From assembly GCA_017476605.1 (NCBI GenBank), contig JAFUZM010000154.1, positions 1 to 32,709 of the forward strand: a stretch of DNA of 32,709 nt. Direction: 5' to 3'. The notes under the pieces were generated by a model. The model made no database searches, was not told the origin of the DNA, and saw nothing but the letters and a program-made list of their open reading frames with translations. This stretch comes from Clostridia bacterium (GTDB lineage: Bacteria > Bacillota > Clostridia > Christensenellales > Aristaeellaceae). How positions within the stretch are numbered: the first letter of the stretch is position 1; the number at the start of each line of letters is the position of its first letter. Positions 1,175 to 32,528 of the stretch are shown in pieces. The translations under genes and the position numbers were made by a program.

Positions 1175-1189
1175 CTGTTCAAGGAGCAG

Positions 1190-1271
1190 TGCCAAGCCAA
1201 ATGGTCAGAAAGCAGGTGCCTGACAAATTGGCTTGGCAAATCAACAATTTCTAATGTACCTGCACAGGAGG
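1190..1271 (+). ncRNA. Candidate pseudoknotted leader RNA (riboswitch-like), copy 1
   Basis: The leader of the GH28 gene can form P1 (1190-1200 with 1228-1238, 11 bp), then P2 (1204-1208 with 1220-1224), closing an 11-nt loop. Loop bases 1212-1219 (GCAGGTGC) can pair with 1256-1263 (GTACCTGC) over 8 bp, including one G-U, which gives a pseudoknot. The 3' partner ends at 1263 and the Shine-Dalgarno AGGAGG is 1266-1271, so folding would affect ribosome access. Positions 1204-1272 match 31704-31772 without gaps at 60 of 69 bases. A named RNA family was not recognised; the regulatory role and any ligand are inference. Confidence 0.65.
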
Positions 1272-1282
1272 GACATCTGAAC

Positions 1283-3322
1283 ATGGAAACATTACGCGAT
1301 ACCATTCTTTCCACGATTTCACTCCCCCAGTTACCGGAGCGGATCATCATTGCCGAGGAGGTCGGCATTCGCGCAAATACCGGTGAAAATCAGCAGTCCG
1401 CCATTCAGCATGCGATTGATCAGCTTTCTCTTGAAGGCGGCGGGATTCTGCTCATTCCAAAGGGCATCTACGATACGGGTGCCATTGAAATGAAAAGTCA
1501 TGTTCATCTGCGTCTTGACAGCCCGGAAACCATTCTCCGCTTCATTCCGGATCCTGCGCTCTATCCGGTCCGTTATGCCCACTGGGAAGCGACACCCTGC
1601 ATGAATTACAGTGCTCTGCTCTATGCCTGCGATGCGCACGATATCGTCATTTCCGGCCCCGGCCATCTCTACGGTGGTGCAGACCGGGAGCACTGGTGGA
1701 ACTGGCATCATCAGGTGGAGAATGCCTGGTCAAGCGATGACCGTGATTACCAGCTGGAGGACCGCTCGCTGCTGAGGCAAATGAATGCTGAGGGCGTCCC
1801 TGTTGAGGCACGTGTTTTTGGAAGCGGACATTATCTCCGTCCGAATTTCATTCAGTTCGTGCGTTGCGAGCGCATCATGCTGAGCGATTTCTCCCTTCAT
1901 AACAGCCCGATGTGGCAGATCAACCCGGTGTTCTGTAAGAGCATCGTCGTAGACAATGTAACCCTGTCAAGCCATGGTCCGAACAACGACGGCTGTGACC
2001 CGGAGAGCTGTAACGGCGTTGTAATCCGGAACTGTCGGTTTGATACAGGCGATGACTGCATTTCTCTCAAGTCCGGACGCGACCTGGATGGCCGGCGGGC
2101 AAACACCCCCTGCCAGAATGTTCTGATCGAACACAACCATTTCCTGGATGGTCATGGCGGCGTCGCACTGGGCAGTGAAATGAGCGGTGGCATCTCCAAT
2201 GTACTTGCCGACCACAACCATTTTGAAAGTCCAAATCTGACCTATGCCCTTCGCTTTAAGACGAATGCCCGGCGCGGGGGATACATCGAAAATGTCACCC
2301 TGTCAAACAGCGAAATCGCAAAGGTCGGCGGTGCCGCCCTCCACGGGACCATGCTCTATGAAGACGGCCGAAACGGCGAGTACCTGCCTGTATTTCGCAA
2401 CATCACGGTGGAAAACATAACCGCCCACGGCGGAGATTACGGCATCTTCCTGGAAGCTTTTCCGGAGGTGCCGATCACCGGCCTCATTCTCCGCAATATC
2501 CATATAGATGGCGTCCGCCAGACCCTTCACAGTCTCAATTGGGAAAATCCCATCATTGATAATGTAACGATCAACGGAAAAACCTATCCTCGTCCGGTTC
2601 ATGTCCGCATTCCGGACATTCCGGTTCCGGGTGCTGTCATCCACGGCACAGCGGAAATGGATGGAACTCAGGACCGCCTTGAGTGGCAATGGGAAACCTC
2701 ACAGGATGGGGTCACCTGGCAGCGTCACGGCCTGTGGGAAGCGTTCACCGTTCCCGTGGATGCCATTTACGTTCGTGCCGTCGCCATGGATGCTGCAGGA
2801 CAGCTGGAAAGAAGCATTCCCTATCTGGTCCTTCCCAGGTTTACACGTCCTCTCAATGACCGCCTTGCCTGTCGTGGCATACTTTCCATTGACGGGAGTT
2901 TCCCGGAATCCTCTCCGGTGACGCGCATCCAGCTTGCGCGGATGCTCTCACCTCTTGGCGAGTCAAGCAGGACCATGCCTCTTCCCGCTTCTGAGGAAAA
3001 TGCTGCCGAAATCGCTGTCGGGAACAGCTTCCTCTCTCTTGCCCCGGATGGCCGTTTCCATCCGGAGGAGCATGTGACCCGGCAGGCCTTTGCCACCGTG
3101 CTGATGCAGGCCTGCGGCATCAACTACCGCAATGCCTCAAGCACCATGCCGGTATGTGCCGATGTCCATGAGGTCACAAACAATTATGGGACCAACGTGG
3201 CACGCGCCCTCTATTTCCGCTTCCTTTCCCTTGAGTCAGGATACTTCCATCCAAACCGCGAGGTCACCTTCCTTGAGGCCATGGAAGCCATCAATCGCGT
3301 GGCCGATTTTGCCGGTCTCTGA
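1283..3322 (+). CDS. GH28 polygalacturonase-like protein with C-terminal SLH-like repeats
   Basis: A 679-residue pectinase-family protein, expected to hydrolyse galacturonic acid linkages. GH28 signatures are in order: N-N-D at 234-236 (family NTD), G-D-D with Asp257 and Asp258, G-H-G around His291, and R-F-K at 324-326 (family RIK). The parallel beta-helix spans roughly 20-440. An Ig/Fn3-like segment follows, then about 520-679 resembles three degenerate S-layer homology repeats; the second and third carry the typical FHP..VTR and FHPN..VT patterns. The start is ATG 1283, 11 bases after AGGAGG; the frame is open further upstream, but only across the terminator and RNA leader. No N-terminal signal peptide is visible, so it is probably cytoplasmic, which is odd for an SLH protein. 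GH105 follows 35 bases later. Confidence 0.88.
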   Translation: METLRDTILSTISLPQLPERIIIAEEVGIRANTGENQQSAIQHAIDQLSLEGGGILLIPKGIYDTGAIEMKSHVHLRLDSPETILRFIPDPALYPVRYAHWEATPCMNYSALLYACDAHDIVISGPGHLYGGADREHWWNWHHQVENAWSSDDRDYQLEDRSLLRQMNAEGVPVEARVFGSGHYLRPNFIQFVRCERIMLSDFSLHNSPMWQINPVFCKSIVVDNVTLSSHGPNNDGCDPESCNGVVIRNCRFDTGDDCISLKSGRDLDGRRANTPCQNVLIEHNHFLDGHGGVALGSEMSGGISNVLADHNHFESPNLTYALRFKTNARRGGYIENVTLSNSEIAKVGGAALHGTMLYEDGRNGEYLPVFRNITVENITAHGGDYGIFLEAFPEVPITGLILRNIHIDGVRQTLHSLNWENPIIDNVTINGKTYPRPVHVRIPDIPVPGAVIHGTAEMDGTQDRLEWQWETSQDGVTWQRHGLWEAFTVPVDAIYVRAVAMDAAGQLERSIPYLVLPRFTRPLNDRLACRGILSIDGSFPESSPVTRIQLARMLSPLGESSRTMPLPASEENAAEIAVGNSFLSLAPDGRFHPEEHVTRQAFATVLMQACGINYRNASSTMPVCADVHEVTNNYGTNVARALYFRFLSLESGYFHPNREVTFLEAMEAINRVADFAGL

Positions 3323-22720: not shown

Positions 22721-22745
22721 AAAATCACATTCTGACCAGTAAAGA

Positions 22746-22797
22746 CCATCCGGCTTCCCTTTGGAAAATGCCAAAGGGAAGCCGGATGGCCTTTTAT
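22746..22797. terminator. Bidirectional terminator, 19-bp perfect stem
   Basis: Arms 22746-22764 and 22771-22789 are perfect complements with a 6-nt loop. CCTTTTATT follows on the + strand and TCTTTACT on the - strand. It serves the phosphoesterase gene and the convergent regulator. Confidence 0.88.
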
Positions 22798-24662
22798 TGA
22801 ATGTTGTACTTGTTCATCTTCCGCCACAAGGTTGCCCGGGAAATGCCAAGCTGCTCTGCCGCCAGGTTTCGGTTGTTTCCGATCTCACGCAGTACGCGGC
22901 GAATGGCCAATTCCTCCTGATTTGCCACAATGTGAACCTGCTGCACCTGTTCTCCTTCCTCAAGGTCGGGCAGCAGCTTTTCACGCACAAAATCGAGTCC
23001 AATTTCCGGCTCCGGTGCCAGCATGATCGCCTTCATGGAGAAGTACTCAATATCCCGCAGGTTCGCAGGCCAGGGATAGCGGCAAAGGTGCTCCATGGCC
23101 TCATCCGTAAAGCGCACGTTCTTTTTGAACTTCTTTGACGCCAGCTTCATGTAGTCGGAGAGGAAGGCCGGAATATCCTCCGGGATTTCCCGAATGGGCG
23201 GAAGCGGAAGAGCAAGCCCCAGGAGGGTACTGGCCAGCTGCCACATGAACTGGTCCTCCCTGACCAGATCCATCAGGTCATAGAAGGTGGAGCAGATGAG
23301 CCGGACATCGACGGGGACCGGTTCTGCGGAATCCCGTCTCTGGAAGTGTCCGTTGCGCAGGATGCTGAGCAGCTGTCCCTGACAGTCCTTGGCAAGCATG
23401 TGGACATCCAGCAGGAACAGGGTTCCCCGGTTGGCCATGGAGACAAGGCCGGTATCCATGCCCCGGGCACGACCGAACAGAACCTCATACTGCCGCTCCG
23501 GTGAGATCGTGCTGAGATCAACATGGACAAAGGAATTGTTCCTGCGCAGGCTTGCATTGTGAATGCACTCGGCAAGCCGGGTTTTGGGAAGTCGAGGTTC
23601 ACCGGTCAGAAGAAGCGGAACATCATATTGGGCATAGGTTTCTGCATCCTCAAGAAGTGCACGCATCTTGGGTGAACGATTGGGAAATGTATCAAAGGTG
23701 TTGCTGGCAATGAAGCCCCGACGGCTTCTCTCCTGACAGATGCGCTCATCCATATCCTCAATGTCCGCAAATTCCTGCATGGACAGGATGAAGCCATCCG
23801 GCTTCCCTTCAAAGGAGATGGCGGAAATGGTCGCCACGTAGGAAGCATTGCCAAACTGCAGTACCGTCACGTATTCCGGCCGCCGTACCTCAAGGGCACG
23901 GATGAGCGCTGAGGCGTTGACCAGGCTGCTCACCTCCACAAGCTTGCACCCATAGAGGCTCTCCTCCGCCGCAATCGCCTGCTCTGCCCGGGGATTGGCA
24001 TAGAGAATCGTTCCCTCGTTGTTGAGTCGGATGATGGCATCTGCGGTATGCTGCAGCAGCATGTTCATCTCCTGAGAGTTTCGCTGTGCCTGCAGCCAGG
24101 TTTCCGTGATCTGGCTCGCCATCTGAAGTGCCGAAAGGAAGCTGTCCCGACTGAGGGTGAGACAGATGCTGGGAAGGCCCAGTTCATCCGCTGCCTGACA
24201 GATTCTTGCATCTCCCACGACCACACTGACCTTTTCCGTGAGTGCGCTTTGCACAGCCTGTCGGCGTTCCTGGGGCGTCGTGACCACATAGCGAAAGACC
24301 GGAACCGTAAGCAGACCGCTAAGAGGCACCAGCTCGCGAAAAAGACGTGTCGTTCCAATCAGAGCAATGCCGCCCTGGAATTCCCCGATTCGCCTTATGA
24401 CCTCTGCCATCAGGTTGGCCATATCCTGGCCGCGGAATGAAACATTGACCAGCGGTTCAATGCCCGCATTCATGCAGCTGTCTGCCAGCTGACCATAGGT
24501 GATCACCACACCGGTACTGCCGCCAAAGTATTTTCGGATTTCGGAAACGGCCGTCTGAGGTTCGAGAAGCAGGACATCGGCTGCAAAGCCGCTTTCCGCA
24601 ATGACGGTTTCCGCCATCTGCTGCTCCATCACGCTCTGAACCGCCACAAGCATGGATTTCAT
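22794..24662 (-). CDS. PrpR-type regulator with a degenerate sigma-54 AAA+ domain
   Basis: A 622-residue regulator in the order PrpR_N-like sensor (about 1-190), PAS (about 195-300), sigma-54-activator-type AAA+ (about 320-545) and Fis-type helix-turn-helix (585-622). The AAA+ domain has lost key motifs: Walker A reads GEPRLPKT (354-361, family GESGTGKE), the GAFTGA loop reads GMDTGL (401-406), Walker B ends LLDV instead of LLDE (416-421), and both arginines of the FRxDLYYRL motif are missing near 472-480. It therefore probably cannot remodel sigma-54 and may act as a classical DNA-binding regulator, as TyrR does. It diverges from the ABC operon, its likely target. Confidence 0.88.
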   Translation of the reverse strand: MKSMLVAVQSVMEQQMAETVIAESGFAADVLLLEPQTAVSEIRKYFGGSTGVVITYGQLADSCMNAGIEPLVNVSFRGQDMANLMAEVIRRIGEFQGGIALIGTTRLFRELVPLSGLLTVPVFRYVVTTPQERRQAVQSALTEKVSVVVGDARICQAADELGLPSICLTLSRDSFLSALQMASQITETWLQAQRNSQEMNMLLQHTADAIIRLNNEGTILYANPRAEQAIAAEESLYGCKLVEVSSLVNASALIRALEVRRPEYVTVLQFGNASYVATISAISFEGKPDGFILSMQEFADIEDMDERICQERSRRGFIASNTFDTFPNRSPKMRALLEDAETYAQYDVPLLLTGEPRLPKTRLAECIHNASLRRNNSFVHVDLSTISPERQYEVLFGRARGMDTGLVSMANRGTLFLLDVHMLAKDCQGQLLSILRNGHFQRRDSAEPVPVDVRLICSTFYDLMDLVREDQFMWQLASTLLGLALPLPPIREIPEDIPAFLSDYMKLASKKFKKNVRFTDEAMEHLCRYPWPANLRDIEYFSMKAIMLAPEPEIGLDFVREKLLPDLEEGEQVQQVHIVANQEELAIRRVLREIGNNRNLAAEQLGISRATLWRKMNKYNIQ

Positions 24663-31666: not shown

Positions 31667-31771
31667 GCCAAGGAACGATGCCCATCGCGTACGTGATGGT
31701 TTTGTCAGGAAGCAGGTACTTGACAAATTAGCTTGGCAAATCAACAGGTTTTAATGTACCTGCAAAGGAGG
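31667..31771 (+). ncRNA. Candidate pseudoknotted leader RNA (riboswitch-like), copy 2
   Basis: P1 is GCCAAG (31667-31672) with CTTGGC (31732-31737); a variable hairpin (about 31674-31699) sits within it. P2 is 31701-31708 with 31720-31727 (8 bp, one G-U), closing an 11-nt loop. Loop bases 31712-31719 (GCAGGTAC) pair with 31756-31763 (GTACCTGC) over 8 Watson-Crick bp. The Shine-Dalgarno AGGAGG is 31766-31771. The whole element lies after the promoter at 31620-31648, so it is transcribed. Copy 1 is at 1190-1271. Regulation is inferred from position and structure. Confidence 0.7.
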
Positions 31772-31778
31772 CTGTACT

Positions 31779-32528
31779 ATGGGTGGTTTTCGAAATGTCG
31801 AAAGCGCACGTCGTGAAAAAGATGGCATTGTCTATTATGACCGTGGAATCCTGACCGGGAAGGATGGCACACGCTATCAGCGATATGCCATTCAGACACA
31901 CTTTGTTTCTCCGGGCGAGGACAAATGCGAGCTGGTTCGCCGCTATGTTCTCCCTCTTTACGAGCCCGGTGACTGTCTGTCTTTCACCGCGAAGGTCATG
32001 GGCATGTGCACCAATAACGTCAGAACCATGGAGGACACGCATCCCGGATTCTGGGCAAAGCGCCTGGCACCCTTTGCCGGTCACAATTCCACCGGAATCG
32101 GCATGCACCAGCCCTATAAAATGCAGCTGGTCATCGAAATCTGCGGTCTCCCCCGCGTCCTGTTTGCTGCCGTTGTCTCTGCCGTGACCCGTCCCTTTGG
32201 GGTTCACGGTCTGTTTTACAAAATCTGCGGACATGGGGTTGCCGGCATCGACGGATTCTATCCGGATTCTTCCTTTGAAATCTATCACAGCCTGGGCGTT
32301 ATCAATCCGGACCACCCCGTAGAAAACTGCGATGAAATCGAGAAGGCCACCGGTGTTCCCACCGTTGTCATGGATGCCAATGACTTTGACCAGAATCAGC
32401 TGGGTAAGGGAACGAATTTCCCGCTCACGGACAGCCAGATTCAGGATGCCATGGCTGACAATCCCTCCGGTCAGGGGGATGAGCTGACCCCCTTTATCCT
32501 CATCCGTCCGCTGCATGATCATCCCTGA
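31779..32528 (+). CDS. CofE-like protein (coenzyme F420-0:L-glutamate ligase family)
   Basis: A 249-residue protein resembling the F420-0:gamma-glutamyl ligase fold (RYVLPLYEPGDCLSFTAKVM, then GLPRVLFAAVVSAVTRPFG and YKICGHGVAGIDGFY). True CofE adds glutamate to F420-0, but no other F420 gene is seen and Firmicutes of this kind usually lack the cofactor, so this is likely an ATP-grasp-independent relative with another substrate. The call is by pattern only. The start at 31779 follows AGGAGG seven bases after the leader RNA. An AEC transporter gene starts 11 bases after the stop, so the two are probably coupled. Confidence 0.55.
   Translation: MGGFRNVESARREKDGIVYYDRGILTGKDGTRYQRYAIQTHFVSPGEDKCELVRRYVLPLYEPGDCLSFTAKVMGMCTNNVRTMEDTHPGFWAKRLAPFAGHNSTGIGMHQPYKMQLVIEICGLPRVLFAAVVSAVTRPFGVHGLFYKICGHGVAGIDGFYPDSSFEIYHSLGVINPDHPVENCDEIEKATGVPTVVMDANDFDQNQLGKGTNFPLTDSQIQDAMADNPSGQGDELTPFILIRPLHDHP

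Follow-up and report, generated by a model that had tools for sequence, protein, structure and literature searches.

A repeated pseudoknot leader that ends in its own ribosome-binding site, probably a mobile cassette, in a Clostridia genome

Two short folded leaders on one contig of a Clostridia bacterium belong to a large family of dispersed repeats which, with high probability, is a non-autonomous mobile element that targets GGAG sites resembling the Shine–Dalgarno sequence (SD) and restores an SD at its own end. This reading draws on the many copies of the unit, their sharp ends, their stacking and one pair of filled and empty sites. A mobile leader cassette, not a riboswitch, is the most likely identity of the units. 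Throughout, the window is the whole stretch of DNA analysed, 32,709 nucleotides long.

An earlier note on the window had described two copies, at 1204-1272 and 31704-31772, as identical at 60 of 69 bases without a gap and as folding into a pseudoknot beside AGGAGG. We recovered the same match, and the pseudoknot can be read from the sequence of both copies: the P1 loop is GCAGGUGC in copy 1 and GCAGGUAC in copy 2, each complementary to the GUACCUGC that stands just before AGGAG. The units and their parts are placed as follows.

1181..1186, plus strand: AAGGAG 5' of unit 1, presumed target site or former SD (sequence read)
1187..1270, plus strand: unit 1, family A (model R1, 84.5 bits at 1200-1270)
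1190-1200/1228-1238, plus strand: long outer stem of unit 1, 11 bp; separate 5' hairpin absent (sequence read)
1204..1224, plus strand: P1 inner stem-loop of unit 1, 1204-1208 with 1220-1224 (sequence read, pair counts)
1212-1219, plus strand: 5' pseudoknot strand of unit 1, in the P1 loop (sequence read)
1256..1263, plus strand: 3' pseudoknot strand of unit 1, GUACCUGC, partner of 1212-1219 (sequence read)
1266..1271, plus strand: AGGAGG, SD at the 3' end of unit 1 (AGGAG 1266-1270), with ATG at 1283
1283..3322, plus strand: ORF after unit 1, glycosyl hydrolase family 28 (GH28; PF00295, E 1.3e-23)
31676..31770, plus strand: unit 2, family A, with a 5' hairpin at 31682-31699 (model R1, 91.4 bits at 31700-31770)
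31701..31727, plus strand: P1 of unit 2, 31701-31708 with 31720-31727 (sequence read)
31712-31719, plus strand: 5' pseudoknot strand of unit 2, in the P1 loop (sequence read)
31756..31763, plus strand: 3' pseudoknot strand of unit 2, pairing with 31712-31719
31766..31770, plus strand: AGGAG of unit 2, with ATG at 31779
31779..32528, plus strand: ORF after unit 2, 249 aa, no Pfam family at E<=1e-5

The genes behind the two copies are unrelated, as had been claimed, one being GH28 and the other an ORF without a Pfam family at that threshold. As to the lengths given for P1, the 11-bp outer stem of copy 1 is present, and copy 2 has a short stem and a separate 5' hairpin, without a long outer stem. 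The two differences offered as compensatory (G against A at 1218, C against T at 1220) are there as described, but they are one-sided wobble changes and by themselves say little. The nested fold of copy 1 is better than that of its shuffles (z -3.6) and that of copy 2 is weak by the same comparison (z -1.8). Searching the window for the core pattern with <=3 mismatches gave three matches against 0.24 expected, namely copy 1, copy 2 and the 3' pseudoknot strand of copy 1 itself, read on the minus strand. Neither copy matches an Rfam 15 family, in keeping with the note, whose author did not know it as a named class; over the whole window at E<=5, Rfam 15 returned three chance-level matches, none at copy 1 or copy 2. 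Directly 5' of unit 1, at 1133-1175, lies a terminator-like inverted repeat (ATATGCCCAGGA..TCCTGGGCATAT), so that transcription of the GH28 gene may depend on a promoter close to the unit or within it.

A covariance-model search, which the note had proposed, makes the pair seen in the window part of a large repeat family. When the source genome (G000; 409 contigs, 5.04 Mb) was searched with model R1, built from 50 aligned core copies, at least 149 family A matches reached E<=0.01, counted among the best 150 of 1635 candidates scored. The first DNA search of this genome had given at least 44 matches, one of them the self-complementary reading of copy 1, with the best 40 of 75 candidates scored. 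The 3' end GTACNTGCANAGGAG occurs 42 times in the genome and its reversed control not once. Contigs C100-C139, picked by number and with two of the 40 truncated at 20 kb, make up a sample of 341,555 bases with 17 family A matches at E<=0.001, a density that scales to about 250 copies per genome. The same genome carries a second family, B, of the same build in other letters: P1 is TTTGTCAG/CTGACAAA, the pseudoknot pairing (P2) is ACGAGCA:TGCTCGT, the linker is CGCCGAAAGACCAAG and the end is CAGAGGAG. Model R2 finds at least 118 copies of it at E<=0.001 among the best 150 of 1911 candidates scored, eight of the family lying in the 40-contig sample. For the counts below, 147 of the 149 family A copies were fetched. 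Alignment A1 holds 51 of 54 places and A2 one fewer, A4 holds 30 of 32 family B matches, and A6 and A7 hold 24 of 26 and 21 of 26 copies of two further families, D and C.

Comparison of the copies gives the order of a unit as a GGAG-like site, a short lead, an optional 5' hairpin, P1, a linker, the 3' strand of P2 and AGAGGAG. The lead is commonly CCATGCC and the optional hairpin CATCGCG..CGCGATG; in family A, P1 reads TTGTCAG-loop-CTGACAA and the linker includes TTGGCTTGGCAAATC. Near-identical units sit with sharp ends in unrelated flanks. The 5' lead could be placed in 82 of the 147 copies; of these, 45 have a 5' flank ending in GGAG, and in 62 GGAG is the end of the unit itself. A and B units also stand in tandem, each beginning directly after the AGGAG of the preceding one.

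Most units lie where an SD would be expected. Counting as an ORF any frame of >=60 aa, or of >=15 aa if it ran off the end of the stretch, 88 of 147 copies have an ORF start 3-13 nt after their AGGAG, and in 61 of those 88 the distance is 6-9 nt; the same rule is satisfied by 778 of 5538 random sites (14%) and by 175 of 803 other GAGGAG sites (22%). Another unit follows directly, by rule, in 21 of 147 copies, and 38 fall in neither class, some of which resemble further units by eye. Ten downstream genes scanned with Pfam are unrelated, some of them housekeeping, and share no theme: GH28, a class II tRNA synthetase, phosphoglucomutase, FtsY (SRP54 type), UvrB, a glutamate dehydrogenase family enzyme, sigma-54, a PALP enzyme, RapZ and the familyless ORF after copy 2. 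We take the synthetase to be the Asn type from the start of its protein, and the PALP enzyme to be TrpB from its sequence. When the nested folding of 40 leaders was set against mononucleotide shuffles, SD accessibility did not differ (0.48 vs 0.47, p 0.34).

The note had likened the layout to that of translational riboswitches and had named uronates and other organic acids as ligands to try. A metabolite riboswitch of that kind, for example for uronates, controlling carbohydrate genes through the pseudoknot by the SD, would suit the layout, which is like that of translational riboswitches, and the position of copy 1 upstream of a GH28 gene. The idea is nevertheless left unsupported by the at least 149 copies, by the unrelated genes behind those scanned, by a DNA search that found the unit in 0 of 28 other genomes of the same genus, by the lack of an Rfam match and by a unit that is present in one version of a locus and absent from another. 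We rejected it on copy number, unrelated downstream genes and the decay of P2 described below, and regard it as extremely improbable. A mobile repeat was the outcome that the note itself had named as speaking against its reading, and this is largely what we found, though we found no known repeat to match.

The clearest view of an insertion comes from two contigs of the assembly, C35 and C261, which are versions of one locus with flanks 89% and 96% identical. In C261 a whole young unit stands between AGAGAAG and AATGCCG, and in C35 AGAGAAG is followed directly by AACACCG, the gap being placed by eye. The left site of the filled version is thus the empty site, the right end is the unit's own AGAGGAG, and no target duplication is seen in this one pair. 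Therefore, unless C35 has excised its unit exactly, the unit was inserted 3' of the target and brought its own 3' site with it. Precise excision from C35 is the counterpoint to insertion here, and the two contigs may be strain variants or duplicates. Since the target in C261 is not a gene's own SD, the preference of the element seems to be for the letters, and selection beyond that preference probably does the rest in placing the copies that survive.

Comparison with related genomes likewise shows leaders without units. Before ftsY, no unit occurs within <=60 nt upstream in any of the 21 readable other genomes, which have a short leader instead (27 other genomes have FtsY, 25 were inspected, 21 had a recognised start and four did not). 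The leader is TTCGGAG-unit ending AGAGGAG-GCGTAT-ATG in G000 and AGGGAG-CCGGATC-ATG in G008. Within the same distance upstream of rapZ there is no unit in 26 of 26 other genomes; G028 has a short unit-like string, TTGGCTTGGCAACGTACC, before the SD, which resembles part of family A and is possibly an old remnant or chance. Before trpB no unit lies within <=60 nt upstream in the five genomes inspected, out of eight others with TrpB.

Two further pairs of loci differ in their leaders. Contigs C97 (L211) and C291 (L221) hold one locus in two versions, with a B-type unit in one and an A-type unit in the other, and the A-type unit differs more than the flanks do. Contigs C302 (L013) and C184 (L224) share a gene start at 96.7%; their leaders, as far as the unit's AGAGGAG, are entirely different, which reads as a leader switch with its border at the 3' end of the unit. 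This pair, with its shared downstream stretch, and the tandem stacks would suit a spread by exchange between repeated leaders, through recombination or template switching, in place of transposition. Against such a spread, near-identical copies lie in unrelated contexts with both ends sharp, the C35/C261 pair differs by a single unit, and homology at the junctions amounts to just a few nt; we consider it quite unlikely.

If the units acted as regulators for the host, P2 should be kept in gene leaders, and the copies allow this to be examined. P2 cells pair in 93.4% of cases across 51 family A copies and in 84.9% across 147. Changes were counted in the 132 of 147 aligned copies that are free of gaps in P2: one side has changed in 202 of 1056 pair cells, of which 67 still pair and 135 are broken, and there are 25 two-sided changes (seven that pair and 18 that do not) against 15 expected by independence. 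For P1 and P2 together, two-sided pairing cells number 63 in the 147 copies; shuffles give 35, and 0 of 500 reach the observed number. Two slid controls reach 67 and 71 two-sided cells; pairing and the covariation score are both far above those of all slides. One P1 pair holds 23 of the 63 cells, which probably marks a subfamily, and within family B no covariation beyond shuffles was found. The covariation of P1 and P2 above shuffles is a counterpoint to the mobile reading, as it would also fit selection on an RNA. Further counterpoints are the excess of two-sided P2 changes over independence, the 38 copies outside both rule classes and the C261 target, which is not an SD of the gene itself.

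Breakage of P2, on the other hand, rises with age alike in gene-leader and non-leader copies (127 copies). For leader against non-leader copies in four divergence strata, broken P2 pairs stand at 0.20 v 0.50, 0.87 v 0.56, 1.08 v 1.39 and 1.81 v 1.56. In the oldest stratum 15 of 16 leader copies still have AGGAG and 5 of 16 non-leader copies do; in the three younger strata leader and non-leader copies do not clearly differ (4/5 v 3/4, 24/30 v 7/9 and 15/24 v 14/23). We read this as the host tending to keep the SD and not the pseudoknot, the SD part coming from one stratum, and as the pseudoknot being kept where copies are made. The 'selected RNA fold' of the earlier note is in this way partly upheld: the fold is real and its pairing is compensated between families and species, but single A copies show 135 one-sided breaks against seven compensated double changes.

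These counts bear most directly on another possibility, that the unit is a cis-regulatory RNA with a very large regulon, in which a protein, a small RNA or a condition acting on the pseudoknot tunes some hundred or more genes and the unit has spread because it is useful. Most units are indeed spaced from a start as an SD would be, the pseudoknot remains paired in every family and species, and the TAACTGA repeats of Beggiatoaceae have been interpreted in such terms in the passages concerned (PMC4679880). The equal breakage of the pseudoknot in leader and non-leader copies, the stacking together with the present/absent pair, and scanned downstream genes without a theme all argue against a regulon, and we judge it unlikely.

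Related species carry units of their own. Model R2 gave weak matches in G003 (11), G008 (4) and G007 (1), and these led to family C in G003 and family D in G008, separate families of the same build whose best copies end in AAAGGAG; family D is often in tandem and has the linker GCCGAAAG. The P2 pairing is GCAGGUAC:GUACCUGC in family A, ACGAGCA:UGCUCGU in B, UAUGAGC:GCUCAUA in C and AAUGACA:UGUCAUU in D. Complementarity in P2 is held between families and species by compensating changes, the letters themselves differing. Across 24 copies of D, cells pair in 91.6% (5' hairpin), 89.5% (P2) and 86.2% (a short third stem), against 20-40% overall in slid controls. The 21 copies of C are more ragged, with 80.6% (5' hairpin) and 74.1% (P2) against 26-48% in slid controls, and contain 24 two-sided changes where shuffles give 12.5; the 5' hairpin accounts for most of the 24. 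Of the D copies 18 of 26, and of the C copies 13 of 26, precede a gene or a further unit, on contigs that are not a random sample. Clear families occur in three genomes, which are also the largest three among the 29, and by FtsY the closest named relatives are for the most part uncultured Clostridia of gut and rumen.

Farther afield little was found. Scoring the best 25 candidates per genome in 200 genomes of the family, model R1 matched G000 and gave two borderline single matches. One of these, when read, has no obvious unit; the other, in G086 of another genus (L081, ~1490-1575), is a weak R1 match with a hairpin, TTTGCAAATCAACAGGC and then GAGGAG, and is perhaps a distant relative of the unit. 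The gene start behind it is presumably gmk-like. The exact core pattern had no match in GTDB genome contigs and viral contigs, a search by which diverged families such as C and D are missed; two more exact viral scans gave no match, nor did distant BLAST searches of plasmid and phage collections.

The mobile element that we favour would be a non-autonomous unit of ~65-100 nt that enters in a single orientation, directly on the 3' side of a short GGAG/GAGRAG, and brings its own AGAGGAG at its 3' end. Surviving copies would come to lie between the old and the new SD of unrelated genes because SDs are common and tolerated GGAG-type sites, and later copies, landing behind the SD of earlier ones, would give stacks. 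The new SD would keep the downstream gene translated, so that an insertion would be nearly neutral. The 5' hairpin and the pseudoknot would serve propagation of the element, not regulation by the host, and recognition may be as a folded single strand of DNA or RNA, as for IS200/IS605 ends and REPs. We propose with low confidence that a Y1/HUH single-strand transposase moves the unit. A Y1 family search of G000 found no transposase with unit-like ends: one Y1 locus is intact, with its ends not defined, two are damaged, and none has recognisable unit ends. Using the intact Y1 protein, tblastn against the fetched loci from L009 onward returned only the genome's own three Y1 loci. An RNA route is possible too; recognition of the pseudoknot may take place at the RNA level, and this would imply an RNA intermediate. 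Downstream of the intact Y1 ORF (L075 ~1040-1660, contig C221) come a strong hairpin and, after another 10 nt, GGGAGG, the SD of the next gene, which we take to encode a MATE-type transporter. This locus would be another mobile gene ending at an SD.

Among known repeats, REP sequences and their TnpA_REP (RAYT) system share with the units a high copy number, an intergenic folded form, species-specific families, single or clustered occurrence and a hairpin with a short tetranucleotide tag or guide, and the passages concerned give REPs a length of 21-65 nt and a GTAG/GTGG tag at the foot of the hairpin (PMC6006769, PMC8266576). The units differ in being longer, in having a pseudoknot, in forming head-to-tail stacks of one orientation, in their GGAG-like bounds and in supplying an SD. 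No repeat was recognised at the ends of the G000 Y1 loci, and no RAYT gene was tied to the units. IS200/IS605 elements and the non-autonomous elements derived from them are described, in the part of the source concerned, with a short target retained 5' and subterminal hairpins, as in the units (PMC6006769). The absence of a target duplication in the one present/absent pair is a further likeness; no shared ends were recognised at the G000 Y1 loci, of which the one intact locus has ends that are not defined. To our knowledge, a GGAG-type target and a 3' SD are not known for the IS200/IS605 family.

BOX, RUP, SPRITE and other MITEs are likewise small repeats with structure, and mobilisation in trans is presumed for them, but descriptions of MITEs include terminal inverted repeats and target duplications, and SD replacement does not figure in the passages cited (PMC3049150). 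The units have no terminal inverted repeat in the alignment of copies and no target duplication in the one pair. The nearest precedent found is the TAACTGA repeats of Beggiatoaceae, many sets of which stand just upstream of start codons with no pattern of function downstream; these differ in being heptanucleotides, mostly without an SD (~10% of regions have one), and in lacking a pseudoknot unit, a word that the paper nowhere uses (PMC4679880). Full-text searches, with hits judged by title and the start of the abstract and with most subscription papers outside them, gave no report of repeats that target SDs, and the fold is undescribed as far as these searches reach.

We put forward, tentatively and as somewhat less than an even prospect, that the units represent a new class of mobile element, one that recognises GGAG-type sites, uses the SD site as a genomic safe harbour, inserts as a folded single strand (pseudoknot and 5' hairpin) and hides the insertion with a replacement SD, different species within a single genus of gut- or rumen-dwelling Clostridia evolving families of their own with rewired pseudoknots. 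If true, this would be, as far as the searched literature reaches, the first case of a dispersed repeat whose targets are ribosome-binding sites and which supplies a new one, and it would explain how well over 100 insertions are tolerated in 5' leaders, some of them of essential genes. It would also serve as a warning that a pseudoknot beside an SD can be mistaken for a riboswitch when few copies are known. If the unit can be moved, translation studies would gain a natural leader cassette, and the integration machinery would become easier to approach.

Elsewhere in the window, a long near-perfect hairpin at 22737-22799 lies near the ends of two convergent ORFs. It is the site of a chance Rfam match to a plant miRNA family and is probably a two-way terminator.
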